Shown: piece by piece, positions 1-64,000 of the stretch
Position numbering within the stretch: position 1 is the first letter of the stretch
Layout of the letters: each line of letters starts with the position of its first letter
From: Saccoglossus kowalevskii
Lineage: Eukaryota > Hemichordata > Enteropneusta > Harrimaniidae
Assembly (NCBI RefSeq): GCF_000003605.2
Contig: NW_003142756.1
Location: forward strand, 54,479-118,478
Length of the DNA: 64,000 nucleotides
Direction of reading: 5' to 3'
Program-made: the position numbers and the translations under genes
The notes under the pieces: generated by a model
Told to the model about the DNA's origin: nothing
Database searches by the model: none
Seen by the model: only the letters and a program-made list of their open reading frames with translations

Positions 1-358
1 AAGTAGATTATCACAACAGCCAACCGAAAAATCGACAACAAACTGCTTACAAAGTTGTGAAAAGCGATTGCAAAGTAGGTAGTTTCATTCCGGATTGTTA
101 CCTGTGATATCATATTAACAAGTCCCATAGTTAAAAGTTCGTTAATGTGAATAAAAATGTCCTAAATGTCCGTTAAATAACCGTAGTGTTACTCCGAGTA
201 TGTAGAGGTCATAGGTCAATTCTAGAAGATATTTGTGCCAGCGATATCGATTTAAAACATCTGAAAACATAAAATAGCCGCCAATTCGGCTTAGTTTCAA
301 ATAATTTATGCAGCTGTGTGGTTGGGTAACAGACAAATGTTTGAAGTAAAGCACAATC
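1..358 (+). repeat. Partial satellite unit (3' part) at the left edge
   Basis: The window opens inside a unit, in the stretch before TCGACAACAAACTGC. It carries the GATATC region, the AGCCG/CGGCT hairpin (276-291) and the TGTGTGGTTGGGTAACAG variant that leads into unit 1. The 5S-like segment of unit 1 begins at about 344. Confidence 0.95.
276..291. repeat. Short GC hairpin (representative)
   Basis: AGCCG-CCAATT-CGGCT gives a 5-bp stem with a 6-base loop, the most GC-rich inverted repeat of the unit, about 70 bp before the 5S-like segment. Variants include AGCGG/CGGCT in unit 60 and loss of the right arm in unit 56. Confidence 0.6.
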
Positions 359-1272
359 GGGCGTGGTTAGTACTTGCATGGGAGACTCCCGTAGTAAACA
401 AAGCGTTGAATTGTCTTTTCATCACACACAAGGACAATATATAAAGCAACGTTCCTGCTAACTTTCTCAATGTGATATAAATTATTTATAGTGCAATTTT
501 AGTAACTATTTTAATTAATGGAAAGTTTTCAAATTCATTCTAATTTTCAAGAACAAGTTATCGATGCTGTTGACACGTAGTGGGTTTTAAGCTGTTAAAA
601 CACCGTTGAAAGTGATTGCAAAGTTGTGCAAAGTTAGGGCAAAGTTGATAGATGTATTTGTATATATGAGCTAAGTTGTTGGTATATAAAAACGCGCAGT
701 TGTAAAGTCGACAAATTCAATAAAAGCCAGGTGAACGCAGCCTATAAATGTTCACATGAGCTGACTGTAATATGTTAGAAAACAACGTGCAAAGTTTGAA
801 AATCGAAGGAAATGTTGGTGGAGTTGCTTGTATATTTAACCTAAGTCTTTGTCATGACAACCCAGCAGTTGAATTTCGAAAACATTAAGTAATTGTATCG
901 AGAATGCCTCATATATGAGTAGATTATCACAACAGCCAACCGAAAAATCGACAACAAACTGCTTACAAAGTTGTGAAAAGCGATTGCAAAGTAGGTAGTT
1001 TCATTCCGGATTGTTATCTGTGATATCATATTAACAAGTCCCATAGTTAAAAGTTCGTAAATGTGAATAAAAATGTCCTAAATGACCGTTAAAAAACCGT
1101 AGTGTTACTCCGAGTATGTAGAGGTCAAAGTCAATTCTAGAAGTATTTGTGCCAGCGATATCGATTTAAAACATCTGAAAACATGAAATAGCCGCCAATT
1201 CGTCTTAGTTTCAAATAATTTATGCAGCTGTGTTGTTGGGTGACCGACAAATGTTTGAAGTAAAGCACAATC
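359..1272 (+). repeat. Satellite unit 1, class C-like, 914 bp
   Basis: The CAAAG region reads CACCGTTGAAAGTG and then the long A-type spacer with TATATAAAAACG, so it is mosaic. It lacks 10 bp where GTGCAA is normally repeated (near 490-496), a slippage-type loss. Its T-run is broken (TTGTCTTTTC), so the terminator-like sequence is weak. Confidence 0.95.
849..860. repeat. 12-bp perfect palindrome (representative)
   Basis: TTGTCATGACAA is its own reverse complement. It lies about 490 bp after the phase point of unit 1 and recurs in most units; unit 54 breaks it (GTCATAACAA) and unit 59 lacks it. It could be a dimeric protein site, but no family match is claimed. Confidence 0.75.
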
Positions 1273-2197
1273 GGGCGTGGTTAGTACTTGCATGGGAGAC
1301 TCCCGTAGTAAACAAGGTGTTGAATTTTGTTTGTCATCGCATACATGGACAATATATAAAGCAACGTTCCTACTATCTTTCTTACTGTGATATCAATTAT
1401 TTATGGTGCAAAATCGTGCAATTTTTGTAACAATTTTAATTAATGGAAAGTTATCAAATTCCTTCTAATTTTCAAGAACATGTTATCAATGCTGTCGGCA
1501 CGTAGTGGGTTTTAAGCTGTCAAAACACCGTTCAAAGTGATTGCAAAATTGTGCAAAGTTATGGCAATTTGATAGATGTATTTGTGTATATGATCTAAGT
1601 TGGTATTATATAAAATCGCGCAGTTTTAAAGTCGACAAATTTAATAAAAGCCAGGTGAACGCAGTCTATAAATGTTCACAACAGCTGACTGTAATATGTT
1701 AGAAAACAACGTGCAAAGTTTGAAAAATCGAAGGAAATGTTGGTGGAGTTGCTTGTATATTTAACCACAGTCATTGTCATGACAATCCCGCAGTTCAGTT
1801 TGGAAAACATTAAGTAATTGTATCGAGAAAGCCTCATATATAAGCAGATAATCACAACAGCCAACCGAAAAATCGACAACAAACTGCTTACAAAGTTGTG
1901 AAAAGCGATTGCAAAGTAGGTAGTTTCATTCCGGATTGTTACCTGTGATATCATATTACAAGTCCCATAGTTAAAAGTTCGTAAATGTGAATAAAAATGT
2001 CTAAATGACCGTTAAATAACCGTAGTGTTACTCCGAGTATGTAGAGGTCATAGGTCACTTCTAGAAGATATTTGTGCCAGTGATATCGATTTAAAACATC
2101 TGAAAACATGAAATGGCCGCCAATTCGGCTTAGTTTCAAATAATCTATGCAGCTGTGTTGTTGGGTGACCGACAAATGTTTGAAGTAAACCACAATC
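1273..2197 (+). repeat. Satellite unit 2, class B, 925 bp
   Basis: CACCGTTCAAAG with CAATTTG and TTATATAAAATCG marks class B. It has CACAACAGCTG in place of CACATGAGCTG, and the variant patch CAGTCATTGTC...AATCCCGCAG (about 1765-1800) shared with units 29, 30, 36, 39 and 66. Confidence 0.95.
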
Positions 2198-2259
2198 GGG
2201 CGTGGTTAGTACTTGCATGGGAGACTCTTATAGTAAACAAGGGGTTGAATTTTGTTTTT
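2183..2259 (+). pseudogene. 5S rRNA-like segment (representative, unit 3)
   Basis: A truncated relative of the animal 5S rRNA gene, covering roughly 5S positions 50 to 120. Visible matches, in order: AGTAAACCAC near box A (5S AGCTAAGCAG); TCGGGCGTGGTTAGTACTT (5S TCGGGCCTGGTTAGTACTT, one difference); GCATGGGAGAC at the start of box C (5S GGATGGGAGAC); then a diverged 3' end GGGTTGAATTTTG, ending in TTTTT at 2255-2259 where 5S genes have their terminator. In real 5S genes box A, the intermediate element and box C bind TFIIIA and recruit RNA polymerase III. The 5' third of 5S, which pairs with the 3' end in the mature RNA, is not recognisable, so this cannot make a normal 5S rRNA. Whether it is transcribed cannot be judged. 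One such segment occurs in every unit. Confidence 0.85.
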
Positions 2260-3123
2260 CATCACACACATGGACAATATATAAAGCAACGTTCCTGCTG
2301 TCTTTCTTACTGTGATATCAATTATTTATAGTGCAAATTCGTGCAATTTTTGTAACTATTTTAATTAATGGAAAGTTTTCAAATTCCTTCTAATTTTCAA
2401 GAACAAGTTATCGATGCTGTCGGCACGTAGTGGGTTTTAAGCTGTCAAAACACCGTTCAAATTGATTGCAAAGTTGTGCAAAGTTATGGCAATTTGATAG
2501 ATGTATTTGTCTATATGACCTAGTTGGTATTATATAAAATCGCGCAGTTGTAAAGTCGACAAATTTAATAAAAGCCAGGTGAACGCCGTCTATAAATGTT
2601 CACATGAGCTGACTGTATTATGTTAGAAAACAACGTGCAAAGTTTGAAATATCGAAGGAAATGTTGGTGGAGTTACTTGTATATTTAACCTAAGTTTTTG
2701 TCATGACAACCCAGCAGTTAAATTTCGTAAACATCAAGTAATTGTATCGAAAATGCCTCATATATAAGTAGATTATCACAACAGCCAACCGAAAAATCGA
2801 CAACAAACTGCTTACAAAGTCGTGAAAAGCGATTGCAAAGTAGGTAGTTTCATTCCGGATTGTTACCTGTGATATCATATTAACAAGTCCCATAGTTAAA
2901 AGTTCGTAAATGTGAATAAAAATGTCCTAAATGACCGTTAAATAACCGTAGTGTTACTCCGAGTATGTAGAGGTCATAGGTCACTTCTAGAAGATATTTG
3001 TGCCAGCGATATCGATTTAAAACATCTGAAAACATGAAATGGCCGCCAATTCGGCTTAGTTTCAAATAATCTATGCAGCTGTGTTGTTGGGTGACCGACA
3101 AATGTTTGAAGTAAAGCACAATC
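2198..3123 (+). repeat. Satellite unit 3, class B, 926 bp
   Basis: The 5S-like part reads TTAGTACTTGC and GGGAGACTCTTATAG. The private change CAAATTGATTGC (about 2458) is shared with units 26 and 27, with which this region appears to share a recent ancestor. Confidence 0.95.
2250..2259 (+). terminator. T-run at the end of the 5S-like segment (representative)
   Basis: TTTTGTTTTT ends the 5S-like segment of unit 3 and nearly every other unit. RNA polymerase III stops at runs of four or more T, and 5S genes end in such a run, so this is the expected place. Function is inferred. Units 1 and 2 have a weakened version. Confidence 0.45.
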
Positions 3124-4050
3124 GGGCGTGGTTAGTACTTGCATGGGAGACTCTTATAGTAAACAAGAGGTTGAATTTTGTTTTTCATCACACACATGGA
3201 CAATATATAAAGCAACGTTCCTGCTGTCTTTCTTACTGTGATATCAATTATTTATAGTGCAAATTCGTGCAATTTTTGTAACTATTTTAATTAATGGAAA
3301 GTTTTCAAATTCCTTCTAATTTTCAAGAACAAGTTATCGATGCTGTCGGCACGTAGTGGGTTTTAAGCTGTCAAAACACCGTTCAAAGTGATTGCAAAGT
3401 TGTTCAAAGTTATGGCAATTTGATAGATGTATTTGTCTATATGACCTAAGTTGGTATTATATAAAATCGCGCAGTTGTAAAGTCGACAAATTTAATAAAA
3501 GCCAGGTGAACGCCGTCTATAAATGTCCACATGAGCTGACTGTAATATGTTAGAAAACAACGTGCAAAGTTTGAAAAATCGAAGGAAATGTTGGTGGAAT
3601 TGCTTGTATATTTAACCTAAGTTTTTGTCATGACAACCCAGCAGTTAAATTTCGTAAACATTAAGTAATTGTATCGATAATGCCTCACATATAAGTAGAT
3701 TATCACAACAGCCAACCGAAAAATCGACATCAAACTGCTTACAAAGTCGTGAAAAGCGATTGCAAAGTAGGTAGTTTCATTCCGGATTGTTACCTGTGAT
3801 ATTATATTAACAAGTCCCATAGTTAAAAGTTCGTAAATGTGAATAAAAATGTCCTAAATGACCGTTAAATAACCGTAGTGTTACTCCGAGTATGTAGAGG
3901 TCATAGGTCAATTATATAAGGTATTTGTTCCAGCGATATCGATTTAAAACATCTGAAAACATGAAATAGCCGCCAATTTGGCTTAATTTCAAATAATCTA
4001 TGCAGCTGTGTTGTTGGGTGACCGACAAATGTTTAAAGTAAAGCGCAATC
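3124..4050 (+). repeat. Satellite unit 4, class B, 927 bp
   Basis: Same GACTCTTATAG 5S-like variant as unit 3. The usual GATATCATATT has mutated to GATATTATATT near 3798, so the EcoRV-type site is lost there. Confidence 0.95.
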
Positions 4051-4975
4051 GGGCGTGGTTAGCACTTGCATGGGAGACTTCCGTAGTAAACAAGCGTTGA
4101 ATTTTGTTTTTCATCGCATACATGGACAATATATAAAGCAACGTTCCTGCTATCTTTCTTACTGTGATATCAATTATTTATAGTGCAAAATCGTGCAATT
4201 TTTGTAACTATATTAATTAATGGAAAGTTTTCAAATTCCTTCTAATTTTCAAGAACAAGTTATCGATGCTGTCGGCACGTAGTGGGTTTTAAGCTGTTAA
4301 ACCACCGTGCAAAGTTGTTCAAAGTTGTGAAAAGTTATGGCAAAGTTGATAGATGTATTTGTATATATGAGCTAAGTTCTTGGTATATAAAAACGGGCAG
4401 TTGTAAAGTCGACAAATTTAATAAAAGCCAGGTGAACGCAGCCTATAAATGTTCACATGAGCTGACTGTAATATGTTAGAAAACAACGTGCAAAGTTTGA
4501 AAAATCGAAGGAAATGTTGGTGGAGTTGCTTGTATATTTAACCTAAGTCCTTGTCATGACAACCCAGCAGTTAAATTTCGAAAACATTAAGTAATTGTAT
4601 CGAAAATGCCTCATATATAAGTAGATTATCACAACAGCCAACCGAAAAATCGACAACAAACTGCTTACAAAGTCGTGAAAAACGATTGCAAAGTAGTAGT
4701 TACATTCCGGATTGTTACCTGTGATATCATATTAACAAATCCCATAGTTAAAAGTTCGTAAATGTGAATAAAAATGTCCTAAATGACCGTTAAATAACCG
4801 TAGTGTTACTCCGAGTATGTAGAGGTCATAGGTCAATTCTAGAAGATATTTGTGCCAGCGATATCGATTTAAAACATCTGAAAACATAAAATAGCCGCCA
4901 ATTCGGCTTAGTTTCAAATAATTTATGCAGCTGTGTGGTTGGGTAACAGACAAATGTTTGAAGTAAAGCACAATC
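4051..4975 (+). repeat. Satellite unit 5, class A', 925 bp
   Basis: TTAGCACTTGC with GACTTCCG in the 5S-like part. The CAAAG region has AAACCACCG and the spacer has AACGGGCAG, the A' signature shared with units 7, 16, 57, 58 and 59. Confidence 0.95.
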
Positions 4976-5902
4976 GGGCGTGGTTAGTACTTGCATGGGA
5001 GACTCATGTAGTAAAAAAGGGGTTGAATTTTGTTTTTCATCACACACATGGACAATATATAAAGCAACGTTCCTGCTGTCTTTCTTACTGTGATATCAAT
5101 TATTTATAGTGCAAATTCGTGCAATTTTTGTAACAATTTTAATTAATGGAAAGTTTTCAAATTCCTTCTAATTTTCAAGAACAAGTTATCGATGCTGTCG
5201 GCACGTAGTGGGTTTTAAGCTGTCAAAACACCGTTCAAAGTGATTGCAAAGTTGTGCAAAGTTATGGCAATTTGATAGATGTATTTGTCTATATTACCTA
5301 AGTTGGTATTATATAAAATCGCGCAGTTGTAAAGTCGACAAATTTAATAAAAGCCAGGTGAACGCCGTCTATAAATGTTCACATGAGCTGACTGTAATAT
5401 GTTAGAAAACAACGTGCAAAGTTTGAAAAATCGAAGGAAATGTTGGTGGAGTTGCTTGTATATTTAACCTAAGTTTTTGTCATGACAACCCAGCAGTTAA
5501 ATTTCGTAAACATTAAGTAATTGTATCGAGAATGCCTCATATATAAGTAGATTATCACAACAGCCAACCGAAAAATCGACAACAAACTGCTTACAAAGTT
5601 GTGAAAATCGATTGCAAAGTAGGTAGTTTCATTCCGGATTGTTACCTGTGATATCATATTAACAAGTGCCAAAGTTAAAAGTTCGTAAATGTGAATAAAA
5701 ATGTCCTAAATGACCGTTAAATAACCGTAGTGTTACTCCGAGTATGTAGAGGTCATAGGTCAATTCTATAAGGTATTTGTTCCAGCGATATCGATTTAAA
5801 ACATCTGAAAACATGAAATAGCCGCCAATTCGGCTTAATTTCAAATAATTTATGCAGCTGTGTTGTTGGGTGACCGACAAATGTTTAAAGTAAAGCGCAA
5901 TC
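4976..5902 (+). repeat. Satellite unit 6, class B, 927 bp
   Basis: The 5S-like end reads GACTCATGTAGTAAAAAAGG, a private change that replaces AAACAAGG. The CAAAG and TATA-like region is class B. Confidence 0.95.
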
Positions 5903-6828
5903 GGGCGTGGTTAGCACTTGCATGGGAGACTTCCGTAGTAAACAAGCGTTGAATTTTGTTTTTCATCGCATACATGGACAATATATAAAGCAACGTTCCT
6001 GCTATCTTTCTTACTGTGATATCAATTATTTATAGTGCAAAATCGTGCAATTTTTGTAACTATTTTAATTAATGGAAAGTTTTCAAATTCCTTCTAATTT
6101 TCAAGAACAAGTTATCGATGCTGTCGGCACGTAGTGGGTTTTAAGCTGTTAAACCACCGTGCAAAGTTGTTCAAAGTTGTGAAAAGTTATGGCAAAGTTG
6201 ATAGATGTATTTGTATATATGAGCTAAGTTGTTGGTATATAAAAACGGGCAGTTGTAAAGTCGACAAATTTAATAAAAGCCAGGTGAACGCAGCCTATAA
6301 ATGTTCACATGAGCTGACTGTAATATGTTAGAAAACAACGTGCAAAGTTTGAAGAATCGAAGGAAATGTTGGTGGAGTTGCTTGTATATTTAACCTAAGT
6401 CCTTGTCATGACAACCCAGCAGTTAAATTTCGAAAACATTAAGTAATTGTATCGAAAATGCCTCATATATAAGTAGATTATCACAACAGCCAACCGAAAA
6501 ATCGACAACAAACTGCTTACAAAGTCGTGAAAAGCGATTGCAAAGTAGGTAGTTTCATTCCGGATTGTTACCTGTGATATCATATGAACAAGTCCCATAG
6601 TTAAAAGTTCGTAAATGTGAATAAAAATGTCCTAAATGACCGTTAAATAACCGTAGTGTTACTCCGAGTATGTTGAGGTCATAGGTCAATTCTAGAAGGT
6701 ATTTGTGCCAGCGATATCGATTTAAAACATCTGAAAACATGAAATAGCCGCCAATTCGGCTTAATTTCAAATAATGTATGCAGCTGTGTAGTTGGGTGGC
6801 AGACAAATGTTTGAAGTAAATCACAATC
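5903..6828 (+). repeat. Satellite unit 7, class A', 926 bp
   Basis: TTAGCACTTGC and GACTTCCG, then AAACCACCG and AACGGGCAG. It is followed by the GTTGAGGTC variant (about 6671) that also precedes unit 43. Confidence 0.95.
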
Positions 6829-6889
6829 GGGCGTGGTTAGCACTTGGATGGGAGACTTCCGTAGTAAACAAGCGTTGACTTTTGTTTTT
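6814..6889 (+). pseudogene. 5S rRNA-like segment with canonical box C start (unit 8)
   Basis: Here the sequence is CTTGGATGGGAGAC (6843-6856), with no difference from the usual animal 5S sequence over this stretch; most units have one change (CTTGCATGG). The T-run TTTTT lies at 6885-6889. Box A is weak (AGTAAATCAC). Confidence 0.85.
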
Positions 6890-7754
6890 CATCGCATACA
6901 TGGACAATATATAAAGCAACGTTCCTGTTATCTTTTTTACTGTGATATCAATTATTTATAGTGCAAAATTTTGCAATTTTTGTAACTATTTTAATTAATG
7001 GAAAGTTTTCAAATTCCTTCTAATTTTCAAGAACAAGTTATCGATGCTGTCGGCACGTAGTGGGTTTTAAGCTGTCAAAACACCGTTCAAAGTGATTGCA
7101 AAATTGTGCAATGTTATGGCAATTTGATAGATGTATTTGTATATATGACCTAAGTTGGTATTATATAAAATCGCGCAGTTTTAAAGTCGACAAATTTAAT
7201 AAAAGCCAGGTGAACGCAGTCTATAAATGTTCACAACAGCTGACTGTAATATGTTAGAAAACAACGTGCAAAGTTGGAAAAATCGAAGGAAATGTTGGTG
7301 GAGTTGCTTGTATATTTAACCTAAGTTTTTGTCATGACAACCCAGCAGTTAAATTTCGAAAACATTAAGTAATTGTATCGAGAATGCCTCATATATAAGT
7401 AGATTATCACAACAGCCAACCGAAAAATCGACAACAAACTGCTTACAAAGTTGTGAAAAGCGATTGCAAAGTAGGTAGTTTCATTCCGGATTGTTACCTG
7501 TGATATCATATTAACAAGTTCCATAGTTAAAAGTTCGTAAATGTGAATAAAAATGTCCTAAATGACCGTTAAATAACCGTAGTGTTACTCCGAGTATGTA
7601 GAGGTCATAGGTCAATTCTAGAAGGTATGTGTTCCAGCGATATCGATTTAAAACATCTGAAAACATGAAATAGCCGCCAATTCGGCTTAATTTCAAATAA
7701 TTTGTGTAGCTGTGTTGTTGGGTGACCGACAAATGTTTAAAGTAAAGCGCAATC
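6829..7754 (+). repeat. Satellite unit 8, class B, 926 bp, canonical 5S box C start
   Basis: The 5S-like part has CTTGGATGGGAGAC, which equals the usual animal 5S sequence at this point, where most units have CTTGCATGG. CACAACAGCTG variant. Units 8 and 43 are close copies, 32478 bp apart. Confidence 0.95.
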
Positions 7755-9606: not shown

Positions 9607-9865
9607 GGGCGTGGTTAGCACTTGCATGGGATACTTCCGTAGTAAACAAGCGTTGAATTTTGTTTTTCATCGCATACATGGACAACATATAAAGCAACGT
9701 TCCTGCTGTCTTTCTTACTGTGATATCAATTATTTATAGTGCAAATTCGTGCAATTTTTGTAACTATTTTAATTAATGGAAAGTTTTTAAATTCCTTCTC
9801 ATTTTCAAGAACAAGTTATCGATGCTGTCGGCACGTAGTGGGTTTTAAGCTGTTAAAACACAGTG

Positions 9866-9901
9866 CAAAGTTGTTCAAAGTTGTGCAAAGTTATGGCAAA
9901 G
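9866..9901 (+). repeat. Phased CAAAG cluster (class A representative)
   Basis: CAAAG begins at 9866, 9876, 9886 and 9897, so four copies are spaced 10, 10 and 11 bp, about one helical turn. Class B units keep three of the four (spacing 11 and 10) and end in CAATTTG. It may be a relic of a short internal tandem repeat. Confidence 0.8.
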
Positions 9902-9939
9902 TTGATAGATGTATTTGTATATATGAGCTAAGTTGTTGG

Positions 9940-9948
9940 TATATAAAA
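9940..9948 (+). promoter_or_regulatory. TATA-like box (class A representative)
   Basis: TATATAAAA followed by ACGCGCAG, about 333 bp after the unit phase point. Class B units have TTATATAAAATCG at the same place. A second TATAAAT follows at 10000-10006. In AT-rich DNA such matches arise easily, so a promoter role is only a possibility. Confidence 0.25.
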
Positions 9949-10532: not shown

Positions 10533-11531
10533 GGGCGTGGTTAGTACTTGCATGGGAGACTCCCGAAGTAAACAAGGTGTTGAATTTTGTTTTTCATCAC
10601 ACACATGGACAACATATAAAGCAACGTTCCTGCTGTCTTTCTTACTGTGATATCAATTATTTATAGTGCAAATTCGTGCAATTTTTGTAACTATTTTAAT
10701 TAATGGAAAGTTTTCAAATTCCTTCTCATTTTCAAGAACAAGTTATCGATGCTGTCGGCACGTAGTGGGTTTTAAGCTGTTAAAACACCGTGCAAAGTTG
10801 TTCAAAGTTGTGCAAAGTTATGGCAAAGTTGATAGATGTATTTGTATATATGAGCTTAGTTGTTGGTATATAAAAACGCGCAGTTGTAATGTCGACAAAT
10901 TTAATAAAAGCCAGGTGAACGCAGCCTATAAATGTTCACATGAGCTGACTGTAATATGTTAGAAAACAACGTGCAAAGTTTGAAAAATCGAAGGAAATGT
11001 TGGTGGAGTTGCTTGTATATTTAACCTAAGTCTTTGTCATGACAACCCAGCAGTTAAATTTCGAAAACATTAAGTAATTTTATCGAGAATGCCTCATATA
11101 TAAGTAGATTATCACAACAGCCAACCGAAAAATCGACAACAAACTGCTTACAAAGTTGTGAAAAGCGATTGCAAAGTAGGTAGTTTCATTCCAGATTGTT
11201 ACCTGTGATATCATATAAACAAGTCACATAGTTAAAAGTTCGTAAATGTGAATAAAAATGTCCTAAATAACCGTTAAATAACCGTAGTGTTACTCCGAGT
11301 ATGTAGAGGTCATAGGTCAATTCTAGAAGGTAGTTGTTCCAGCGATATCGATTTAAAACATCTGAAAACATGAAATAGCCGCCAATTCGGCTTAGTTTCA
11401 AATAATTTATGCAGCTGTATCGATTTAAAACATCTGAAAACATGAAATAGCCACCAATTCGGCTTAATTTCAAATAATGTATGCAGCTGTGTAGTTGGGT
11501 GACAGACAAATGTTTGAAGTAAAGCGCAATC
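10533..11531 (+). repeat. Satellite unit 12, class A, 999 bp with 72-bp duplication
   Basis: The longest unit. A segment from TATCGATTT to GCAGCTG is present twice (11346-11417 and 11418-11489). The two copies carry different variant states, so this is a chimera of two units. TTAGTACTTGC and GACTCCCGAAG. Confidence 0.95.
11346..11489 (+). repeat. 72-bp internal tandem duplication in unit 12
   Basis: TATCGATTT recurs at 11346 and 11418, exactly 72 bp apart. The first copy has GCCGCCAATT, GGCTTAGTTTC and TAATTTATGC; the second has GCCACCAATT, GGCTTAATTTC and TAATGTATGC. Each set is found in separate units elsewhere, so the duplication joined two different unit types at GCAGCTG/TATCG. Confidence 0.9.
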
Positions 11532-26353: not shown

Positions 26354-27280
26354 GGGCGTGGTTAGTACTTGCATGGGAGACTCCCGTAGTAAACAAGGTG
26401 TTGAATTTTGTTTTTCATCACACACATGGACAACATATAAAGCAACGTTCCTGCTATCTTTCTTACTGTGATATCAATTATTTATAGTGCAAATTCGTGC
26501 AATTTTTGTAACTATTTTAATTAATGGAAAGTTTTCAAATTCCTTCTCATTTTCAAGAACAAGTTATCGATGCTGTCGGCACGTAGTGGGTTTTAAGCTG
26601 TTAAAACACCGTGCAAAATTGTTCAAATTTGTGCAAAGTTATGGCAAAGTTGATAGATGAATTTGTATATATGAGCTAAGTTGTTGGTATATAAAAACGC
26701 GCAGTTGTAAAGTCGACAAATTTAATAAAATCCAGGTGAACGCAGCCTATAAATGTTCACATGAGCTGACTGTAATATGTTAGAAAACAACGTGCAAAGT
26801 TTGAAAAATCGAAGGAAATGTTGGTGGAGTTGCTTGTATATTTAACCTCAGTCATTGTCATGACAATCCCGCAGTTAAGTTTGGAAAACATTAAGTAATT
26901 GTATCGAGAAAGTCTCATATATAAGCAGATAATCACAACAGCCAACCGAAAAATCGACAACAAACTGCTTACAAAGTTGTGAAAAGCGATTGCAAAGTAG
27001 GTAGTTTCATTAGGGATTGTTACCTGTGATATCATATTAACAAGTCCCATAGTTAAAAGTTCGTAAATGTGAATAAAAATGTCCTAAATGACCGTTAAAT
27101 AACCGTACTGTTACTACGAGTATGTAGAGGTCATAGGTCAATTCTAGAAGGTATTTGTGCCAGCGATATCGATTTAAAACATCTGAAAACATGAAATAGC
27201 CGCCAATTCGGCTTAATTTCAAATAATGTATGCAGCTGTGTGGTTGGGTGACAGACAAATGTTTGAAGTAAATCACAATC
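26354..27280 (+). repeat. Satellite unit 29, class A, 927 bp
   Basis: TTAGTACTTGC and GACTCCCG. Class A with GTGCAAAATTGTTC. The CAGTCATTGTC...AATCCCGCAG patch is present (about 26849-26875). Confidence 0.95.
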
Positions 27281-28206
27281 GGGCGTGGTTATGTACTTGC
27301 ATGGGAGACTTCCGTAGTAAACAAGCGTTGAATTTTGTTTTTCATCGTATACATGGACAATATATAAAGCAACGTTCTTGCTATCTTTCTTACTGTGATA
27401 TAAATATTTATAGTGCAAAATCGTGCAATTTTTGTAACTATTTTAATTAATGGAAAGTTTTCAAATTCCTTCTAATTTTTAAGAACAAGTTATCGATGCT
27501 GTCGGCACGTAGTGGGTTTTAAGCTTTCAAAACACCGTTCAAAGTGATTGCAAAATTGTGCAAAGTTATGGCAATTTGATAGATATATTTGTATATATGA
27601 GCTAAGTTGTTGGTATATAAAAACGCGCAGTTGTAAAGTCGACAAATTTAATAAAAGCCAGGTGAACGCAGCCTATAAATGTTCACAACAGCTGACTGTA
27701 GTATGTTAGAAAACAACGTGCAAAGTTGGAAAAATCGAAGGAAATGTTGGGAGAGCTGCTTGTATATTTAACCTCAGTCATTGTCATGACAATCCCGCAG
27801 TTAAGTTTGGAAAACATTAAGTAATTGTATCGAGAAAGCCTCATATATAAGCAGATAATCACAACAGCCAACCGAAAAATCGACAACAAACTGCTTACAA
27901 AGTTGTGAAAAGCGATTGCAAAGTAGGTAGTTTCATTCGGGATTGTTACCTGTGATATCATATTAACAAGTCCCATAGTTAAAAGTTCGTAAATGTGAAT
28001 AAAAATGTCCTAAATGACCGATAAATAACCGTAGTGTTACTCCGAGTATGTAGAGGTCATAGGTCAATTGTAGAAGGTATTTGTGCCAGCGATATCGAGT
28101 TAAAACATCTGAAAACATGAAATAGCCGCCAATTCGGCTTAGTTTCAAATAATTTATTCAGCTGTGTTGTTGGGTGACCGACAAATGTTTGAAGTAAAGC
28201 ACAATC
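27281..28206 (+). repeat. Satellite unit 30, B/A mosaic, 926 bp
   Basis: One extra base in the 5S-like part (GGTTATGTACTT). The CAAAG region is class B up to CAATTTG, then switches to the A-type spacer with TATATAAAAACG near 27595-27630. CAGTCATTG patch and CACAACAGCTG present. Confidence 0.95.
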
Positions 28207-53198: not shown

Positions 53199-54124
53199 GG
53201 GCGTGGTTAGCACTTGCATGGGAGACTTCCGTAGTAAACAAGCGTTGAATTTTGTTTTTCATTGCATACATAGACAATATATAAAGCAACGTTCCTGCAA
53301 TCTTTCTTACTGTGATATCAATTATTTATAGTGCAAAATCGTGCAATTTTTGTAACTATTTTAATTAATGGAAAGTTTTCAAATTCCTTCTAATTTTCAA
53401 GAACAAGTATTCGATGCTGTCGGCACGTAGTGGGTTTTAAGCTGTTAAACCACCGTGCAAAGTTGTTCAAAGTTGTGAAAAGTTATGGCAAAGTTGATAG
53501 GTGTATTTGTATATATGAGCTAAGTTGTTGGTATATAAAAACGGGCAGTTGTAAAGTCGATAAATTTAATAAAAGCCAGGTGAACGCAGCCTATAAATGT
53601 TTACATGAGCTGACTGTAATATGTTAGAAAACAACGTGCAAAGTTTGAAAAATCGAAGGAAATGTTGGTGGAGTTGCTTGTATATTTAACCTAAGTCCTT
53701 GTCATGACAACCCAGTAGTTAAATTTCGAAAACATTAAGTAATTGTATCGAAAATGCCTCATATATAAGTAGATTATCACAACAGCCAACCGAAAAATCG
53801 ACAACAAACTGCTTACAAAGTCGTGAAAAGCGATTGCAAAGTAGGTAGTTACATTCCGGATTGTTACCTGTGATATCATATTAACAAGTCCCATAGTTAA
53901 AAGTTCGTAAATGTGAATAAAAATGTCCTAAATGACCGTTAAATAACCGTAGTGTTACTCCGAGTATGTAGAGGTCATAGGTCAATTCTAGAAGATATTT
54001 GTGCCAGCGATATCGATTTAAAACATCTGAAAACATAAAATAGCCGCCAATTCGGCTTAGTTTCAAATAATTTATGCAGCTGTGTGTTTGGGTAACAGAC
54101 AAATGTTTGAAGTAAAGCACAATT
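53199..54124 (+). repeat. Satellite unit 58, class A', 926 bp
   Basis: TTGGGCGTGG and GACTTCCG, ATTGCATACATAGAC, AAACCACCG. Almost the same sequence as its neighbours, which points to recent local amplification. Confidence 0.95.
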
Positions 54125-54779
54125 GGGCGTGGTTAGCACTTGCATGGGAGACTTCCGTAGTAAACAAGCGTTGAATTTTGTTTTTCATCGCATACATAGA
54201 CAATATATAAAGCAACGTTCCTGCAATCTTTCTTACTGTGATATCAATTATTTATATTGCAAAATCGTGCAATTTTTGTAACTATTTTAATTAATGGAAA
54301 GTTTTCAAATTCCTTCTAATTTTCAAGAACAAGTTATCGATGCTGTCGGCACGTAGTGGGTTTTAAGCTGTTAAACCACCGTGCAAAGTTGTTCAAAGTT
54401 GTGAAAAGTTATGGCAAAGTTGATAGATGTATTTGTATATAAAACCGAAAAATCGACAACAAACTGCTTACAAAGTCGTGAAAAGCGATTGCAAAGTAGG
54501 TAGTTACATTCCGGATTGTTACCTGTGATATCATATTAACAACTCCCATAGTTAAAAGTTCGTAAATGTGAATAAAAATGTCCTAAATGACCGTTAAATA
54601 ACCGTAGTGTTACTCCGAGTATGTAGAGGTCATAGGTCAATTCTAGAAGATATTTGTGCCAGCGATATCGATTTAAAACATCTGAAAACATAAAATAGCC
54701 GCCAATTCGGCTTAGTTTCAAATAATTTATGCAGCTGTGTGTTTGGGTAACAGACAAATGTTTGAAGTAAAGCACAATT
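54125..54779 (+). repeat. Satellite unit 59, class A', 655 bp, internally deleted
   Basis: A deletion of about 271 bp joins GTATTTGTATATA to AAACCGAAAAATCG near 54437-54446. The palindrome, the CACATGAGCTG region and the body of the spacer are lost; the 5S-like part is kept. Confidence 0.96.
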
Positions 54780-56632: not shown

Positions 56633-57557
56633 GGGCGTGGTTAGCACTTACATGTGAGACTTCGGTGGTAAACAAGCATTGAATTTTGTTTTTCATCACA
56701 CACATGGACAATATATAAAGCAACGTTCCTGTTGTCTTTCTTACTGTGATGTCAATTATTTATAGTGCAAATTCGTGCAATTTTTGTAACTATTTTATTT
56801 AATGGAAAGTTTTCAAATTCCTTCTAATTTTCAAGAACAAGTTATCAATGCTGTCGGCACGTAGTGGGTTTTAAGCTGTCAAAACACCGTTCAAAGTGAT
56901 TGCAAAGTTGTGCAAAGTTATGGCAATTTGATAGATGTATTTGTCTATATGACCTAAGTTGGTATTATATAAAATCGCGCAGTTGTAACGTCGACAAATT
57001 TAATAAAAGCCAGGTGAACGCCGTCTATAAATGTTCACATGAGCTGACTGTAATATGTTAGAAAACAACGTGCAAAGTTTGAAAAATCGAAGGAAATGTT
57101 GGTGGAGTTGCTTGTATATTTAACCTAAGTTTTTGTCATGACTACCAAGCAGTTAAATTTCGAAAACATTAAGTAATTGTATCGAGAATGCCTCATATAT
57201 AAGTAGATTATCACAACAGCCAACCGAAAAATCGACAACAAACTGCTTACAAAGTTGTGAAAAGCGATTGCAAATAGGTAGTTTCATTCCGGATTGTTAC
57301 CTGTGATATCATATTAACAAGTCCCATAGTTAAAAGTTCGTAAATGTGAATAAAAATGTCCTAAATGACCGTTAAATAACCGTAGTGTTACTCCGAGTAT
57401 GTAGAGGTCATAGGTCAATTCTAGAAGATATTTGTGCCAGCGATATCGATTTAAAACATCTGAAAACATGAAATAGCCGCCAATTCGGCTTAATTTCAAA
57501 TAATTTATGCAGCTGTGTTGTTGGGTGACCGACAAATGTTTGAAGTAAAGCACAATC
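56633..57557 (+). repeat. Satellite unit 62, class B, 925 bp, degenerate 5S-like part
   Basis: CTTACATGTGAGACTTCGG. TTTTATTTAATGG breaks TTAATTAA near 56790. GTGATGTCAATT also loses GATATC. Confidence 0.95.
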
Positions 57558-58475
57558 GGGCGTGGTTAGTACTTGCATGGGAGACTCTTGTAGTAAACAA
57601 GGGGTTGAATTTTGTTTTTCATCACACACATGGACAATATATAAAGCAACGTTCCTGCTATCTTTCTTACTGTGATATCAATTATTTATAGTGCAAAATC
57701 GTGCAATTTTTGTAACTATTTTAATTAATGGAAAGTTTTCAAATTCATTCTAATTTTCAAGAACAAGTTATCGATGCTGTTGCCACGTAGTGGGTTTTAA
57801 GCTGTTAAAATACCGTTCAAAGTGATTGCAAAGTTGTGCAAAGTTATGGCAAAGTTGATAGATGTATTTGTCTATATGAGCTAAGTTGTTGGTATATAAA
57901 ATCGCGCAGTTGTAAAGTCGACAAATTTATAAAAGCCAGGTGAACGCCGTCTATAAATGTTCACATGAGCTGACTGTAATATGTTAGAAACAACGTGCAA
58001 AGTTTGAAAAATCGAAGAATGTTGGTGGAATTGCTTGTATATTTAATCTAGTTTTGTCATGACTACCCAGCAGTTAAATTTCGAAACATTAGTAATGTAT
58101 CGAGATGCCTCATATATAAGTAGATTATCACAACAGCCAACCGAAAAATCGACAAAAAACTGCTTACAAAGTTGTGAAAAGCGATTGCAAAGTAGGTAGT
58201 TTCATTCCGGATTGTTACCTGTGATATCATATTAACAAGTCCCATAGTTAAAAGTTCGTAAATGTGAATAAAAATGTCCTAAATGACCGTTAAATAACCG
58301 TAGTGTTACTCCGAGTATGTAGAGGTCATAGGTCAATTCTATAAGGTATTTGTTCCAGCGATATCGATTTAAAACATCTGAAAACATGAAATAGCCGCCA
58401 ATTCGCCTTAATTTCAAATAATTTATGCAGCTGTGTTGTTGGGTGACCGACAAATGTTTAAAGTAAAGCGCAATC
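57558..58475 (+). repeat. Satellite unit 63, class C, 918 bp, error-like deletions
   Basis: About ten one-base losses lie between 57926 and 58110 (AAATTTATAAAAG, TTAGAAACAACG, CGAAGAATG, CATTAGTAATG, CGAGATGCC). The rest is ordinary class C. Confidence 0.95.
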
Positions 58476-59403
58476 GGGCGTGGTTAGCACTTGCATGGGA
58501 GACTTCCGTAGTAAACATGCGTTGAATTTTGTTTTTCATCGCATACATGGACAATATATAAAGCAACGTTCCTGTTATCTTTCTTACTGTGATATCAATT
58601 ATTTATAGTGCAAAATCGTGCAATTTTTGTAACTATTTTAATTAATGGAAAGTTTTCAAATTCCTTCTAATTTTCAAGAACAAGTTATCGATGCTGTCGG
58701 CACGTAGTGGGTTTTAAGCTGTCAAAACACCGTTCAAAGTAATTGCAAAGTTGTGCAAAGTTATGGCAATTTGATAGATGTATTTGCATATATGACCTAA
58801 GTTGGTATTATATAAAATCGCGCAGTTGTAAAGTCGACAAATTTAATAAAAGCCAGGTGAACGCAGTCTATAAATGTTCACATGAGCTGACTGTAATATG
58901 TTAGAAAACAACGTGCAAAGTTGGAAAAATCGAAGGAAATTTGGTGGAGTTGCTTGTATATTTAACCTAAGTTTTTGTCATGACAACCCAGCAGTTAAAT
59001 TTCGAAAACATTAAGTAATTGTATCGAGAATGCCTCATATATAAGTAGATTATCATAACAACAGCCAACCGTAAAATCGACAACAAACTGCTTGCAAAGT
59101 TTTGAAAAGCGATTGCAAAGTAGGTAGTTTCATTCCGGATTGTTACCTGTGATATCATATTAACAAGTCCCATAGTTAAATGTTCGTAAATGTGAATAAA
59201 AATGTCCTAAATGACCGTTAAATAACCGTAGTGCTACTCCGAGTATGTAGAGGTCATAGGTCAATTCTAGAAGGTATTTGTGCCAGCGATATCGATTTAA
59301 AACATCTGCAAACATGAAATAGCCGCCAATTCGGCTTAATTTCAAATAATGTATGCAGATGTGTGGTTGGGTGACCGACAAATGTTTGAAGTAAAGCACA
59401 ATC
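58476..59403 (+). repeat. Satellite unit 64, class B, 928 bp
   Basis: GTATTTGCATATATG, CATAACAACAGCC insertion, AACCGTAAAATCG. The right part has CTGCAAACATG and GCAGATGTGTGG. Confidence 0.95.
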
Positions 59404-60330
59404 AGGCGTGGTTAGCACTTGCATGGGAGACTTCCGTAGTAAACAAGGTGTTGAATTGTGTTTTTCATCGCATACATGGACAATATATAAAGCAACGTTC
59501 CTGCTATCTTTCTTACTGTGATATCAATTATTTATAGTGCAAAATCGTGCAATTTATGTAACTATTTTAATTAATGGAAAGTTTTCAAATTCCTTCTAAT
59601 TTTCAAGAAAAAGATATCGATGCTGTCGGCACGTAGTGGGTTTTAAGCTGTTAAAACACCGTGCAAAGTTGTTCAAAGTTGTGTAAAGTTATGGCAAAGT
59701 TGATAGATGTATTTTTATATATGAGCTAAGTTGTTGGTATATAAAAATGCGCAGTTGTAAAGTCGACAAAGTTAATAAAAGCCAGGTGAACGCAGTCTAT
59801 AAATGTTCACATGAACTGACTGTAATATGTTAGAAAACAACGTGCAAAGTTGGAAAAATCGAAGGAAATGTTGGTGGAGTAGCTTGTATATTTAACCTAA
59901 GTCTTTGTCATGACAACCCAGCAGTTAAATTTCGAAAACATTAAGTAATTGTATCGAGAATGCCTCATATATAAGTAGATTATCACAACAGCCAACCGAA
60001 AAATCGACAACAAACTGCTTACAAAGTCGTGAAAAGCGATTGCAAAGTAGGTAGTTACATTCCGGATTGTTACCTGTGATATCATATTAACAAGTCCCAT
60101 AGTTAAAAGTTCGTAAATGTGAATAAAAATGTCAGAAATGACCGATAAATAACCGTAGTGTTACTCCGAGAATGTAGAGGTCATAGGTTAATTCTAGAAG
60201 GTATTTGTGCCAGCGATATCGATTTAAAACATCTGAAAACATGAAATAGCCGCCAATTCGGCTTAATTTCAAATAATGTATGTAGCTGTGTGGTTGGGTG
60301 ACAGACAAATGTTTGAAGTAAATCACAATC
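59404..60330 (+). repeat. Satellite unit 65, class A, 927 bp
   Basis: CAGGCGTGG, GAATTGTGTTTTTC, CAATTTATG and GTATTTTTATATATG. AAAAAGATATCGATG group. Confidence 0.95.
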
Positions 60331-61255
60331 GGGCGTGGTTAGCACTTGCATGGGAGACTTCCATAGTAAACAACCGTTGAATTTTGTTTTTCATCGTATA
60401 CATGGACAATATATAAAGCAACGTTCCTGCTATCTTTCTTACTGTGATATCAATTATTTATAGTACAAAATCGTGCAATTTTTGTAACTATTTTAATTAA
60501 TGGAAAGTTTTCAAATTCCTTCTAATTTTCAAGAACAAGTTATCGATGCTGTCGGCACGTAGTGGGTTTTAAGCTGTCAAAACACCGTTCACAGTGATTG
60601 CAAAGTTGTGCAAAGTTATGGCAATTTGATATATGTATTTGTATATATGACCTAAGTTGGTATTATATAAAATCGCGCAGTTGTAAAGTCAACAAATTTA
60701 ATAAAAGCCATGTGAACGCAGCCTATAAATGTTCACAACAGCTGACTGTAATATGTTAGAAAACAACGTGCAAAGTTGGAAAAATCGAAGGAAATGTTGG
60801 TGGAGTTGCTTGTATATTTAACCTCAGTCATTGTCATGACAATCCCGCAGTTACGTTTGGAAAACATTAAGTAATTGTATCGAGAATGCCTCATATATAA
60901 GCAGATAATTACAACAGCCAACCGAAAAATCGACAACAAACTGCTTACAAAGTTTTGAAAAGCAATTGCAAAGTAGGTAGTTTCATTCTGGATTGTTACC
61001 TGTGATATCATATTAACAAGTCCCATAGTTAAAAGTTCGTAAATGTGAATAAAAATGTCCTAAATGACCGTTAAATAATCGTAGTGTTACTCCGAGTATG
61101 TAGAGGTCATAGGTCAATTCTAGAAGATATTTGTGCCAGCGATATCGATTTAAAACATCTGAAAACATAAATAGCCGCCAATTCGGCTTAGTTTCAAATA
61201 ATTTATGCAGCTGTGTGTTTGGGTAACAGACAAATGTTTGAAGTAAAGCACAATT
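60331..61255 (+). repeat. Satellite unit 66, class B, 925 bp; relative of unit 36
   Basis: AAGTCAACAAATTT, GCCATGTGAACG, CAGTCATTG patch and CAGTTACGTTTGG, as in units 36 and 39. GACTTCCATAG and TTGATATATG are private. Confidence 0.95.
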
Positions 61256-62182
61256 GGGCGTGGTTAGCACTTGCATGGGAGTCTCCCGTAGTAAACAAGG
61301 TGTTGAATTGTGTTTTTCATCACACACAAGGACAATATATAAAGCAACGTTCCTGCTATCTTTCTCACTGTGATATCAATTATTTATAGTACAAAATCGT
61401 GCAATTTTTGTAACTATTTTAATTAATGGAAAGTTTTCAATTTCCTTCTAATTTTCAAGAAAAAGATATCGATGCTGTCGGCACGTAGTGGGTTTTAAGC
61501 TGTTAAAACACCGTGCAAAGTTGTTCAAAGTTGTGTAAAGTTATGGCAAAGTTGATAGATGTATTTGTATATATGAGCTAAGTTGTTGGTATATAAAAAT
61601 GCGCAGTTGTAAAGTCGACAAAGTTAATAAAAGCCAGGTGAACGCAGTCTATAAATGTTCACATGAGCTGACTGTAATATGTTAGAAAACTACGTGCAAA
61701 GTTGGAAAAATCGAAGGAAATGTTGGTGGAGTAGCTTGTATATTTAACCTAAGTCTTTGTCATGACAACCCAGCAGTTAAATTTCGAAAACATTAAGTAA
61801 TTGTATCGAGAATGCCTCATATATAAGTAGATTATCACAACAGCCAACCGAAAAATCGACAACAAACTGCTTACAAAGTTGTGAAAAGCGATTGCAAAGT
61901 AGGTAGTTTCATTCCGGATTGTTACCTGTGATATCATATTAACAAGTCCCATAGTTAAAAGTTCGTAAATGTGAATAAAAATGTCCTAAATGACCGTTAA
62001 ATAACCGTAGTGTTACTCCGAGTATGTAGAGGTCATAGGTCAATTCTAGAAGGTATATGTGCCAGCGATATCGATTTAAAACATCTGAAAACATGAAATG
62101 GCCGCCAATTCGGCTTAGTTTCAAATAATTTATGCAGCTGTGTTGTTGGGTGACCGACAAATGTTTAAAGTAAAGCGCAATC
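61256..62182 (+). repeat. Satellite unit 67, class A, 927 bp
   Basis: The left part matches unit 37 (TTGGGCGTGG, GGGAGTCTCCCG). The match ends about 180 bp in, at TCAATTTCC, and the AAAAAGATATCGATG class A group follows. Confidence 0.95.
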
Positions 62183-63110
62183 GGGCGTGGTTAGCACTTG
62201 CATGGGAGACTTCCGTAGTAAACAAGGTGTTGAATTTTGTTTTTCATCGCATACATGGACAATATATAAAGCAACGTTCCTGCTATCTTTCTCACTGTGA
62301 TATCAATTATTTATAGTACAAAATCGTGCAATTTTTGTAACTATTTTAATTAATGGAAAGTTTTCAAATTCATTCTAATTTTCAAGAACAAGTTATCGAT
62401 GCTGTCGGCACGTAGTGGGTTTTAAGCTGTCAAAACACCGTTCAAAGTAATTGCAAAGTTGTGCAAAGTTATGGCAATTTGATAGATGTATTAGCATATA
62501 TGACCTAAGTTGGTATTATATAAAATCGCGCAGTTGTAAAGTCGACAAATTTAATAAAAGCCAGGTGAACGCAGTCTATAAATGTTCACATGAGCTGACT
62601 GTAATATGTTAGAAAACAACGTGCAAAGTTGGAAAAATCGAAGGAAATTTGGTGGAGTTGCTTGTATATTTAACCTAAGTTTTTGTCATGACAACAAAGC
62701 AGTTAAATTTCGAAAACATTAAGTAATTGTATCGAGAATGCCTCATATATAAGTAGATTATCATAACAACAGCCAACCGAAAAATCGACAACAAACTGCT
62801 TACAAAGTTTTGAAAAGCGATTGCAAAGTAGGTAGTTTCATTCCGGATTGTTACCTGTGATATCATATTAACAAGTCCCATAGTTAAATGTTCGTAAATG
62901 TGAATCAAAATGTCCTAAATGACCGTTAAATAACCGTAGTGCTACTCCGAGTATGTAGAGGTCATAGGTCAATTCTAGAAGGTATTTGTTCCAGCGATAT
63001 CGATTTAAAACATCTGCAAACATGAAATAGCCGCCAATTCGGCTTAATTTCAAATAATGTATGCAGATGTGTGGTTGGGTGACCGACAAATGTTTGAAGT
63101 AAGCACAATC
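62183..63110 (+). repeat. Satellite unit 68, class B, 928 bp; relative of unit 38
   Basis: GTATTAGCATATATG, GACAACAAAGCAG, CATAACAACAGCC and GAATCAAAATG repeat the unit 38 set about 27.5 kb downstream. Confidence 0.95.
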
Positions 63111-64000
63111 AGGCGTGGTTAGCACTTGCATGGGAGACTTCCGTAGTAACAAGCGTGAATTTGTTTTCATCGCATACATGGACACATATAAAGCAACGTC
63201 TGCTGTCTTTCTACTGTGATATCAATTATTTATAGTGCAAATTCGTGCAATTTTTGTAACTATTTTAATTAATGGAAAGTTTTTAAATTCTTTCTCATTT
63301 TCAAGAACAAGTTATCGATGCTGTCGGAACGTAGTTGGTTTTAAGCTGTTAAAACACCGTGCAAAATTGTTCAAAGTTGTGCAAAGTTATGGCAAAGTTG
63401 ATAGAAGTATTTGTATATATGTGGTGAGTTGTTGGTATATAAAAACGCGCAGTTGTAAAGTCGACAAATTTAATAAAAGCCAGGTGAACGCCGTCTATAA
63501 ATGTTCACATGAGCTGACTGTAATATGTTAGAAAACAACGTGCAAAGTTTGAAAAATCGAAGGAAATGTTGGTGGAGTTGCTTGTATATTTAACCTAAGT
63601 TTTTGTCATGACAACCCAGCAGTTAAATTTCGTAAACATTAAGTAATTGTATCGAGAATGCCTCATATATAAGTAGATTATCACAACAGCCAACCGAAAA
63701 ATCGACAACAAACTGCTTACAAAGTTGTGAAAAGCGATTGCAAAGTAGGTAGTTTCATTCCGGATTGTTACCTGTGATATCATATTAACAAGTCCCATAG
63801 TTAAAAGTTCGTAAATGTGAATAAAAATGTCCTAAATGACCGTTAAATAACCGTAGTGTTACTCCGAGTATGTAGAGGTCATAGGTCAATTCTAGAAGGT
63901 ATTTGTGCCAGCGATATCGATTTAAAACATCTGAAAACATGAAACAGCCGCCAATTCGGCTTAGTTTCAAATAATGTATGCAGCTGTGTAGTTGGGTGAC
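63111..64000 (+). repeat. Satellite unit 69, class A, cut by the right edge
   Basis: CAGGCGTGG. Dense one-base losses follow up to about 63215, then an ordinary class A unit with GTAGTTGGTTTT and the private ATATGTGGTGAG. The window ends shortly before the next 5S-like segment. Confidence 0.95.

Follow-up and report, generated by a model that had tools for sequence, protein, structure and literature searches.

A 5S rRNA gene-derived satellite of Saccoglossus kowalevskii with two promoter boxes that are constant between the arrays compared

Satellites derived from 5S rDNA are themselves already known, and the new evidence presented here is the box-specific conservation between arrays. The closest described systems are summarized from excerpts of the papers cited. 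PcP190 of hyloid frogs is a tandem satellite of ~190 bp derived from 5S rDNA, with a conserved 5S-like region of 120 bp that is ~69% similar to frog 5S and with reported transcripts (PMC11675491, PMC4201667). The fish Hoplias malabaricus has a 5S-derived centromeric satellite, the RNA fold of which is unstable and altered (PMC5437419), and a B chromosome of Plantago carries another 5S-derived satellite (as cited in PMC5437419). Parts of 5S are also found in mobile elements. The Cassandra TRIMs of plants keep box A, the intermediate element (IE) and box C of 5S, vary in the short motifs between the boxes and mirror the promoter letters of their hosts (PMC10853983, PMC7215508). Ajax, a nemertean TRIM, is an LTR element of 421-434 bp that keeps nothing of 5S but the promoter, with box A, IE and box C, and has lost the 5S fold, and SINE3 is a dispersed repeat with a 5S-derived internal RNA polymerase III (Pol III) promoter and a LINE-like 3' part (PMC10886601). 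In the 5S gene the internal control region consists of box A (nt 50-64), the IE (nt 67-72) and box C (nt 80-97) (PMC6204057).

The window studied here, i.e., the whole stretch of 64,000 nucleotides that was analysed, extends to the right end of a contig of 118,478 bp (C3350). An earlier note made from the letters alone had described it as 69 units of a 926-bp satellite, and this was borne out: in BLAST with the unit consensus, the satellite filled 63,998 of the 64,000 bases. The same satellite was found in both 10-kb stretches of the contig that were read beyond the window, one directly to its left (L009) and one at the contig start (L010). The unit consensus was 927 bp long, with a mean pairwise identity of 95.4% among 64 aligned intervals of 900-950 bp; three others (999, 1853 and 655 bp) were left out of the alignment. 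Higher-order repeats were rejected, the mean identity being flat (~0.951-0.959) over lags 1-45. The features of the array are as follows.

1..64000, + strand: head-to-tail satellite array, unit of ~926 bp, 69 units with the 5S core
343..386, + strand: unit 1 segment homologous to nt 48-91 of the species' own 5S (start of box A, IE and most of box C), 39/44 identical; recurs in every unit
357..386, + strand: unit 1 core of 30 nt, without mismatch to own 5S nt 62-91
416..419, + strand: unit 1 terminator-like T-run (TTTT)
1257..1300, + strand: unit 2 segment resembling 5S nt 48-91; overlaps a match to RF00001 at 1220-1328 (23.5 bits, below the gathering score)
11346..11490, + strand: 72-bp internal tandem duplication immediately upstream of one core (the 999-bp interval)
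27279..27309, + strand: core with one extra nucleotide between the IE and box C; the sole core missed by the ungapped scan
53767..54441, + strand: shortened unit (unit positions 1-676; 655 bp to the next core), with the core still present
63671-64000, + strand: partial last unit of the array

The 5S core was present in all of the 69 units, 68 of which were found by the ungapped scan. Nucleotides 48-91 of the species' own 5S aligned without gaps to units 1 and 2, with 39 of 44 positions identical in both and nt 62-91 entirely so. The alignment score to own 5S was 58 for the consensus and 63 for these two units, and the maximum among 1000 dinucleotide shuffles of the consensus was 26; the resemblance that the earlier note had seen was significant when compared with the host's own gene. 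In Rfam, no match in the whole window reached the gathering score; the two 5S matches at E<=10 in positions 1-2000 scored 23.5 and 17.2 bits, where the threshold is 38. The note had also put the 5S-like part of each unit at about 75 bp, or the 3' two-thirds of the gene. Strictly, the homology spans 44 bp in the window: past nt 91 the similarity of this family to 5S was not significant (26 of 300 shuffles did equally well), and upstream of nt 48 no 5S homology was present (138/300 and 80/300 shuffles were equally good). In a sister family of ~943 bp, however, the likeness to 5S over nt 92-121 was significant (0/300 shuffles, 1/1864 null placements), and the longer estimate is therefore correct for the ancestor. 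An origin from 5S rDNA is supported for the segment, which matches the host 5S, but not for the whole unit. Derivation of the whole unit from a 5S rDNA repeat was rejected because just the 44 bp and a weak match of 23 bp (E 0.55) were shared with the own 5S arrays, two kinds of which were compared by one locus each (L001 and L003). The unit is 5S-derived satellite DNA, arranged head to tail and partly homologous to the host 5S, and is not a functional 5S gene.

As judged from its letters, the retained stretch, nt 48-91, is most of what would be the 5S internal (type-1 Pol III) promoter. Box A is retained only at nt 50-57, with T53A, its nt 58-61 are replaced, and a 1-nt deletion was found in it in 7 of the 64 aligned window units. 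The IE was intact in all eight array consensuses compared, as was box C over nt 80-91, while nt 92-97 of box C were not 5S-like. In the consensus, the box A start, the IE and box C follow one another in the 5S order and at the 5S distances, free of gaps. The terminal T-run that it had pointed out was also confirmed: TTTT occurs downstream of the segment (consensus 387-425) in 64/64 aligned window units, and the consensus T-runs start at 410 and 415, which is the place of the own 5S terminator if nt 1 is set at consensus 296. No TATA-like motif was evident by eye near -28.

Across the genome the core was found at 7,480 places with no more than two mismatches, a count that includes true 5S genes; the reversed-pattern control gave none. 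It is found in at least two satellites without other detectable similarity, i.e., a 216-bp satellite consisting of a 5S copy of nearly full length and a spacer, and a 926-945-bp superfamily that includes the window array and has array families differing mostly by 10-17%. Copies of the long unit number about 2,667. The 216-bp satellite and PcP190 are built alike. The window unit, on the other hand, is set apart from PcP190, as described, by its length of 926 bp, by having the promoter part only and by the concentration of identity in the IE and box C. The Hoplias and Plantago satellites, compared here by description only, are likewise 5S genes turned satellite, and promoter-box conservation between their arrays is not mentioned in the excerpts of PMC5437419.

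The main evidence comes from the comparison between arrays. Among the eight array consensuses, the IE and box C (to nt 91) were variable at 0/18 sites and the spacers (nt 58-66 and 73-79) at 11/16 (Fisher 1.5e-5, optimistic like all p-values given here, since units and contigs are not independent), with five of the eight arrays obtained via the core-pattern search and some consensuses resting on 1-3 units. Outside the IE and box C, 375 of 909 sites were variable, and a mask shaped like these two boxes and slid along the unit was free of variation at only 2/927 placements, both at the element. The contrast was weaker, although of the same direction, in the window and four contigs found by a flank motif (0/18 versus 6/16, p 0.006; 13/927 placements variation-free). 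In 18 units placed by the distant flank motif, a set that follows a single subfamily pattern, excludes one unit with a deletion and has two units from main-test contigs, mismatches amounted to 0/108 in the IE, 4/216 in box C and 24/216 in the spacers; with ten more such units (28 in all), they were 10/504 in the IE and box C and 39/336 in the spacers. The sites that change in the satellite (nt 58-61 and those between the IE and box C) correspond, in our reading, to the variable motifs of Cassandra (PMC10853983). In a ranking of 898 windows of 30 bp by plain identity between families, the core was just 25th. The constancy of the IE and box C between the arrays compared, as the surrounding DNA drifts, suggests that the satellite may be bound or read by the Pol III machinery. 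It also lends indirect support to the idea of the earlier note that the array could seed Pol III transcription every 926 bp.

Within arrays, no such pattern was found. The boxes were no less variable than the rest of the unit in polymorphism within arrays (mask rank 517/927 in C3350 and 404/927 in C324), and within the window the core was 467th of 898 windows by identity. In C882 all three units fetched carry a change in the IE or box C while the consensus is intact, and in one stretch of C820 a box C change was found in two of four units. Selection within arrays was rejected for lack of signal. Outside the long arrays, the core lies in pieces of the long unit, which are not SINE-like, at the five loci examined (L047, L071, L072, L080 and L081), two of which reach the edge of the DNA fetched. 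In seven dispersed or rearranged fragments, mismatches numbered 11/126 in the IE and box C and 7/83 in the spacers; when these fragments were compared with the 28 array units, the boxes differed (p 0.0008) and the spacers were alike (p 0.56). Three loci that are satellite-free on their visible sides (L047, L080 and L081) gave the same result by themselves (p 0.01 and 0.78, respectively).

On balance, this 5S-derived satellite probably has a Pol III promoter that is kept in arrays because it is bound or transcribed. It is somewhat unlikely that the segment is instead a passive relic, i.e., a 5S fragment that is neither bound nor transcribed and is carried along by homogenisation, with the box pattern due to chance and search bias. 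The lack of constraint on the boxes inside arrays, the changed boxes of C882, the modest rank of the core in identity between families and the partial bias of the main test through core-pattern sampling would all agree with such a relic. However, the pattern recurs in units found via the distant flank motif, occurs nowhere else along the unit in the test of eight arrays and is absent from the dispersed or rearranged fragments. The core could also be held 5S-like by repeated gene conversion, with real 5S genes or the 216-bp satellite as the source; potential donors number thousands, and some cores are exactly own 5S, including 13 of the 68 that the ungapped scan found in the window (over the 30 nt) and 22/37 units of C324. 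Nevertheless, altered spacers lie only 1-7 bp from unaltered boxes, and a return to the 5S state at nt 58-61 or nt 92-119 is seen in none of the array consensuses. Such sites should scarcely have been bypassed by conversion tracts, and this explanation is therefore disfavoured as very unlikely.

Descent from a Pol III-driven retroelement, either a 5S-headed SINE3 or a TRIM like Ajax or Cassandra, would place the constraint on the boxes in a mobile phase. As in Ajax, the 5S promoter has been kept in an animal repeat without the 5S fold (PMC10886601), and Cassandra can form long tandem arrays (PMC7215508). One dispersed copy (L047) has direct terminal repeats of 163 nt with 87% identity, and its left end (unit position 72) is close to that of L080 (76). 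The right ends, however, differ (234 and 201), and the repeated ends do not include the core. Clean element ends were absent from the dispersed copies examined, and no target-site duplication was seen by eye. Cassandra differs by its LTRs, primer-binding site and polypurine tract, whereas no primer-binding site was evident by eye in the ten + strand stretches of the unit that start with TGG. Both Ajax and SINE3 differ from the satellite in that the latter consists of tandem units, of 926-945 bp, and SINE3 also in that the 5S part of the satellite is 5'-truncated. Such a descent is considered unlikely. Mimicry of 5S rRNA by a transcript that binds a ribosomal protein, or TFIIIA as RNA, is extremely improbable. 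TFIIIA does bind 5S RNA too, and the core spans part of it. However, the 5' pairing partners are unrecognisable, the predicted fold is no better than that of shuffles, and the changing sites within nt 73-79 presumably belong to the loop E region needed by real 5S.

The history of a satellite with a promoter kept in its arrays could have been the following. Part of a 5S rRNA gene, from about nt 48 to the terminator, would have been taken up by an ancestor of the long satellite, which then spread into several array families. In the family of the window, the 5S-like sequence would have eroded and left most of the type-1 Pol III internal promoter. TFIIIA might bind box C and the IE and then bring in TFIIIC, TFIIIB and Pol III. 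Each unit would in this way yield a short RNA of ~110-130 nt, unstructured and terminated at the T-run. An array in which the promoter works might be maintained or amplified more readily, be it through open chromatin, as a copying template or through a structural role in chromatin, and we infer that the element in the arrays may still be a working binding site. More tentatively, selection at the level of arrays could possibly maintain TFIIIA/Pol III promoters in thousands of units, their persistence hinging on Pol III or on TFIIIA/TFIIIC binding, and the 216-bp and 926-945-bp satellites together might far outnumber the own 5S genes and compete for TFIIIA; this broader reading is doubtful.

It has long been asked whether satellite DNA can be kept for the sake of a site bound by a sequence-specific protein, and the CENP-B box is the main example. 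In the present case, the units of a satellite contain a known promoter, the contact boxes of which have been mapped. Boxes and spacers are separated by a few bases; their evolution differs in arrays and is similar in the few dispersed fragments seen, which opens the question to a direct test. The finding might also help to explain why satellites of the PcP190 type have a conserved region beside a hypervariable one.

The remainder of the 5S gene and its fold have been lost from the window unit. The predicted fold of the 5S-like RNA had a z score of +0.45, compared with -3.0 for own 5S, and a structured non-coding RNA from this part was rejected on that value. A match to SNORD47 (18.3 bits, gathering score 50) was regarded as chance. 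Elsewhere in the genome, COX1 lies on a 17,037-bp contig and, read with translation table 5, points to an animal in which TGA encodes tryptophan; AAA at a conserved lysine argues against the echinoderm code. Fold z scores below -2 were confined to three 120-nt windows of the + strand, which start at 926, 1 and 26.

The unit consensus of the satellite (927 bp) covered 63,998 of the 64,000 window bases in BLAST (positions 54479-118478 of the 118,478-bp contig C3350; the assembly comprises 572 Mb in 4,830 contigs), and the same satellite was found in two further 10-kb stretches of the contig, at its start and directly left of the window. A 30-nt core, corresponding to nt 62-91 of the 5S rRNA gene of the species, was present in all 69 units; 68 came from an ungapped scan and one carried an insertion:

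27279, core with a 1-nt insertion, missed by the ungapped scan

The unit alignment included 64 core-to-core intervals of 900-950 bp and left out those of 999, 1853 and 655 bp. Pairwise identity averaged 95.4% (range 91.8-99.9%). No higher-order repeat is visible in the window array at lags 1-45 because mean identity between units stays at about 0.951-0.959 throughout. Each unit also has diverged internal repeats (64-76% alike) around GTGCAAAGTT, at consensus 4-80, 39-89, 618-668, 627-730, 755-830 and 798-899.

The species' own 5S genes were located with RF00001 (at least 47 scored, all above the cut-off). They are 119 nt long; the spacing is about 1,126-1,139 bp on C3485, and on C2212 and C3801 it is mostly about 1,579 bp. 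True 5S arrays came in two kinds whose spacers are unlike, with units of about 1,138 bp (stretches L001-L002, L004-L008 and L046; C3485) and of about 1,579 bp (L003; C2212). Aligned to the own 5S, as the earlier note had proposed, the unit matches nt 48-91 without gaps; units 1 and 2 each have 39/44 positions equal and no difference over nt 62-91. The match scores 58-63, whereas none of 1000 dinucleotide shuffles exceeded 26. The 5S-like segment claimed for every unit is thus confirmed by the 69/69 cores and by this alignment. In the proposed comparison with the Rfam 5S model, window units stay below its gathering score because the remainder of the 5S gene has been lost from them. Position 82, within box C, is a C in the own 5S and in the satellite consensuses alike.

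No homology 5' of nt 48 emerged from the shuffle comparison. On the 3' side, nt 92-121 are detectable in a related sister family of about 943 bp (19/30 positions equal to 5S; 0/300 shuffles and 1/1864 null placements as good), whereas in the window family they are not recognisable (26/300 shuffles as good). This difference suggests that in the ancestor the 5S part probably ran from about nt 48 to the terminator and that the window family has since eroded to the promoter. The description of the segment as 75 bp from the 3' two-thirds of 5S would therefore suit the probable ancestor, but not the window family, where nt 48-91 alone are left.

Given the known box coordinates (box A 50-64, intermediate element [IE] 67-72, box C 80-97; PMC6204057), the kept segment takes in the start of box A, the entire IE and two-thirds of box C. 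Across the 64 window units the IE showed no mismatch and box C 3.3%; nt 58-61 were replaced (99% mismatch to the own 5S), nt 76 was C in 50/64 units, and box A had a 1-nt deletion in 7/64. A TTTT lies downstream of the segment in 64/64 aligned units, matching the 5S terminator in position when nt 1 is set to consensus 296, and only 1/64 has TTTT within consensus 296-386; such a terminator-like TTTT alone is weak evidence because T-runs are common in the AT-rich unit.

Conservation was compared among eight arrays (C3350, C324, C124, C525, C389, C482, C882 and C1714, with 82, 37, 1, 2, 2, 2, 3 and 3 units). Array consensuses diverged by 0.4% between C3350 and C820, 4.6% between C124 and C525, and 9.8-16.9% in all other pairs. 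Across the eight, the IE and nt 80-91 of box C had 0/18 variable sites, as against 11/16 in nt 58-66 and 73-79 (Fisher 1.5e-5) and 375/909 outside IE and box C. A mask of the same shape moved along the unit was free of variable sites at 2/927 placements, consensus 362 and 363, which are the element itself. This test is biased to intact cores because five of the eight contigs were met by the core pattern (C324 also by a flank motif), the others being the window itself and two found by flank motif. With the window and four flank-motif contigs (C3350, C820, C882, C1714 and C324), the counts were 0/18 and 6/16 (p 0.006), and 13/927 mask placements had no variable site.

As a replicate, 20 short stretches were chosen by how far they lay from flank-motif matches in a single subfamily, ignoring the core. 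One (L091) had no core, and in L089 a 1-nt deletion puts the ungapped comparison out of register. The 18 usable units came from eight contigs, two of them already in the eight-array test, and their mismatches to the own 5S were 0/108 in the IE, 4/216 in box C and 24/216 in the spacers (nt 62-66 and 73-79); with L089 added, these become 4/114, 4/228 and 27/228. Ten more units from three flank-found stretches gave 2/60, 4/120 and 15/120, with a box change in 3/3 units of C882, 0/3 of C1714 and 2/4 of C820. Pooled, the 28 units had 10/504 mismatches in IE plus box C and 39/336 in the spacers (p 1e-8, the units not being independent).

Seven fragments at five loci in larger contigs, also located by flank motif (L047, L071, three in L072, L080 and L081), had 11/126 in the boxes and 7/83 in the spacers. 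Since they differ from the 28 array units in the boxes (p 0.0008) and not in the spacers (p 0.56), the boxes look protected in arrays while decaying like their surroundings elsewhere. L071 and L072 extend to the limit of the sequence covered and may be parts of short arrays that were rearranged; L047, L080 and L081 alone gave p 0.01 for boxes and p 0.78 for spacers. However, polymorphism inside arrays counters box protection and gives no sign of it, the mask ranking 517/927 in C3350 and 404/927 in C324. Homogenisation and recent amplification could hide protection there.

A constraint at the DNA level, on the promoter, seems the simplest reading, because the predicted RNA of the 5S-like part has no special fold (z +0.45 vs -3.0 for the own 5S). 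TFIIIA would bind the units, and Pol III would probably transcribe a short RNA from each. Because box A is only partly kept and no TATA-like element was apparent by eye near -28, binding may also be weak or limited to TFIIIA. The pattern of boxes and spacers resembles that of Cassandra, in which two short motifs vary between conserved boxes, one of 4 nt separating A-box from IE and one of 5 nt separating IE from C-box (PMC10853983), the match of positions being our own reading. Among the 120-nt windows scanned along the unit, the only ones with fold z below -2 start at the unit junction (consensus 926, 1 and 26; -3.1, -2.7 and -2.0; + strand).

The 5'-truncated 5S fragment could have arrived by retrotransposition, through a SINE3-like element or through a TRIM. 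Of 5S, the nemertean Ajax has only the three boxes, located in its LTR (PMC10886601), and Cassandra has formed long tandem arrays (PMC7215508). One dispersed copy has 163-nt terminal direct repeats, right ends differ among dispersed copies, and neither a primer-binding site nor a target-site duplication was seen by eye in the unit and the dispersed copies examined. Either re-insertion from circles or an element may account for the dispersed fragments. All five loci hold permuted or rearranged long-unit (926-945 bp) fragments, two of which start at almost the same place in the unit (positions 72 and 76).

5S-derived satellites are a known kind, e.g., PcP190 of frogs, which has transcripts (PMC11675491, PMC4201667), and those of Hoplias and Plantago (cited in PMC5437419). 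Since the open-access papers searched gave no description of a satellite showing box-specific conservation in which only the 5S promoter is kept, most subscription papers lying outside this scope, the promoter-only unit would appear to be a new form among them.

Genome-wide, the 28-nt core pattern (≤2 mismatches) has 7,480 matches, 4,612 forward and 2,868 reverse, a count that takes in the true 5S genes (0 and 0 for the reversed pattern). The flank motif, which in the long unit is 460-480 bp distant from the core, occurs at 2,667 places (≤3 mismatches), and its subfamily form at 938, overlapping with these (≤2 mismatches). Contigs among the first 100 core places listed hold two kinds of array, the ~926-945-bp arrays and a 216-bp satellite whose build is PcP190-like. 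The consensus of the latter, from 98 distinct units at loci chosen by exact core, holds a 5S copy about 91.7% identical to the own 5S over 120 positions. It shares with the window consensus only 45 bp, the promoter segment (next best E-value 0.12). The 216-bp unit (L011-L020, L022-L032 and L045; C111, C242 and C404) consists of a near full-length 5S copy and a spacer of about 96 bp, nt 62-111 being unchanged in the consensus of these core-picked loci. Some cores on C404 lie 118 bp apart with the spacer mostly absent, and C554, among the core matches listed, has a spacing similar to the 216-bp satellite.

One further contig, L102 (C4830, 17,037 bp), is mitochondrial. Its ND1-like and COX2-like frames (both named by eye) are on one strand and its COX1 is on the other. 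The COX1 frame has no AGA or AGG codon and needs TGA as tryptophan, and by this COX1 the host is an animal.
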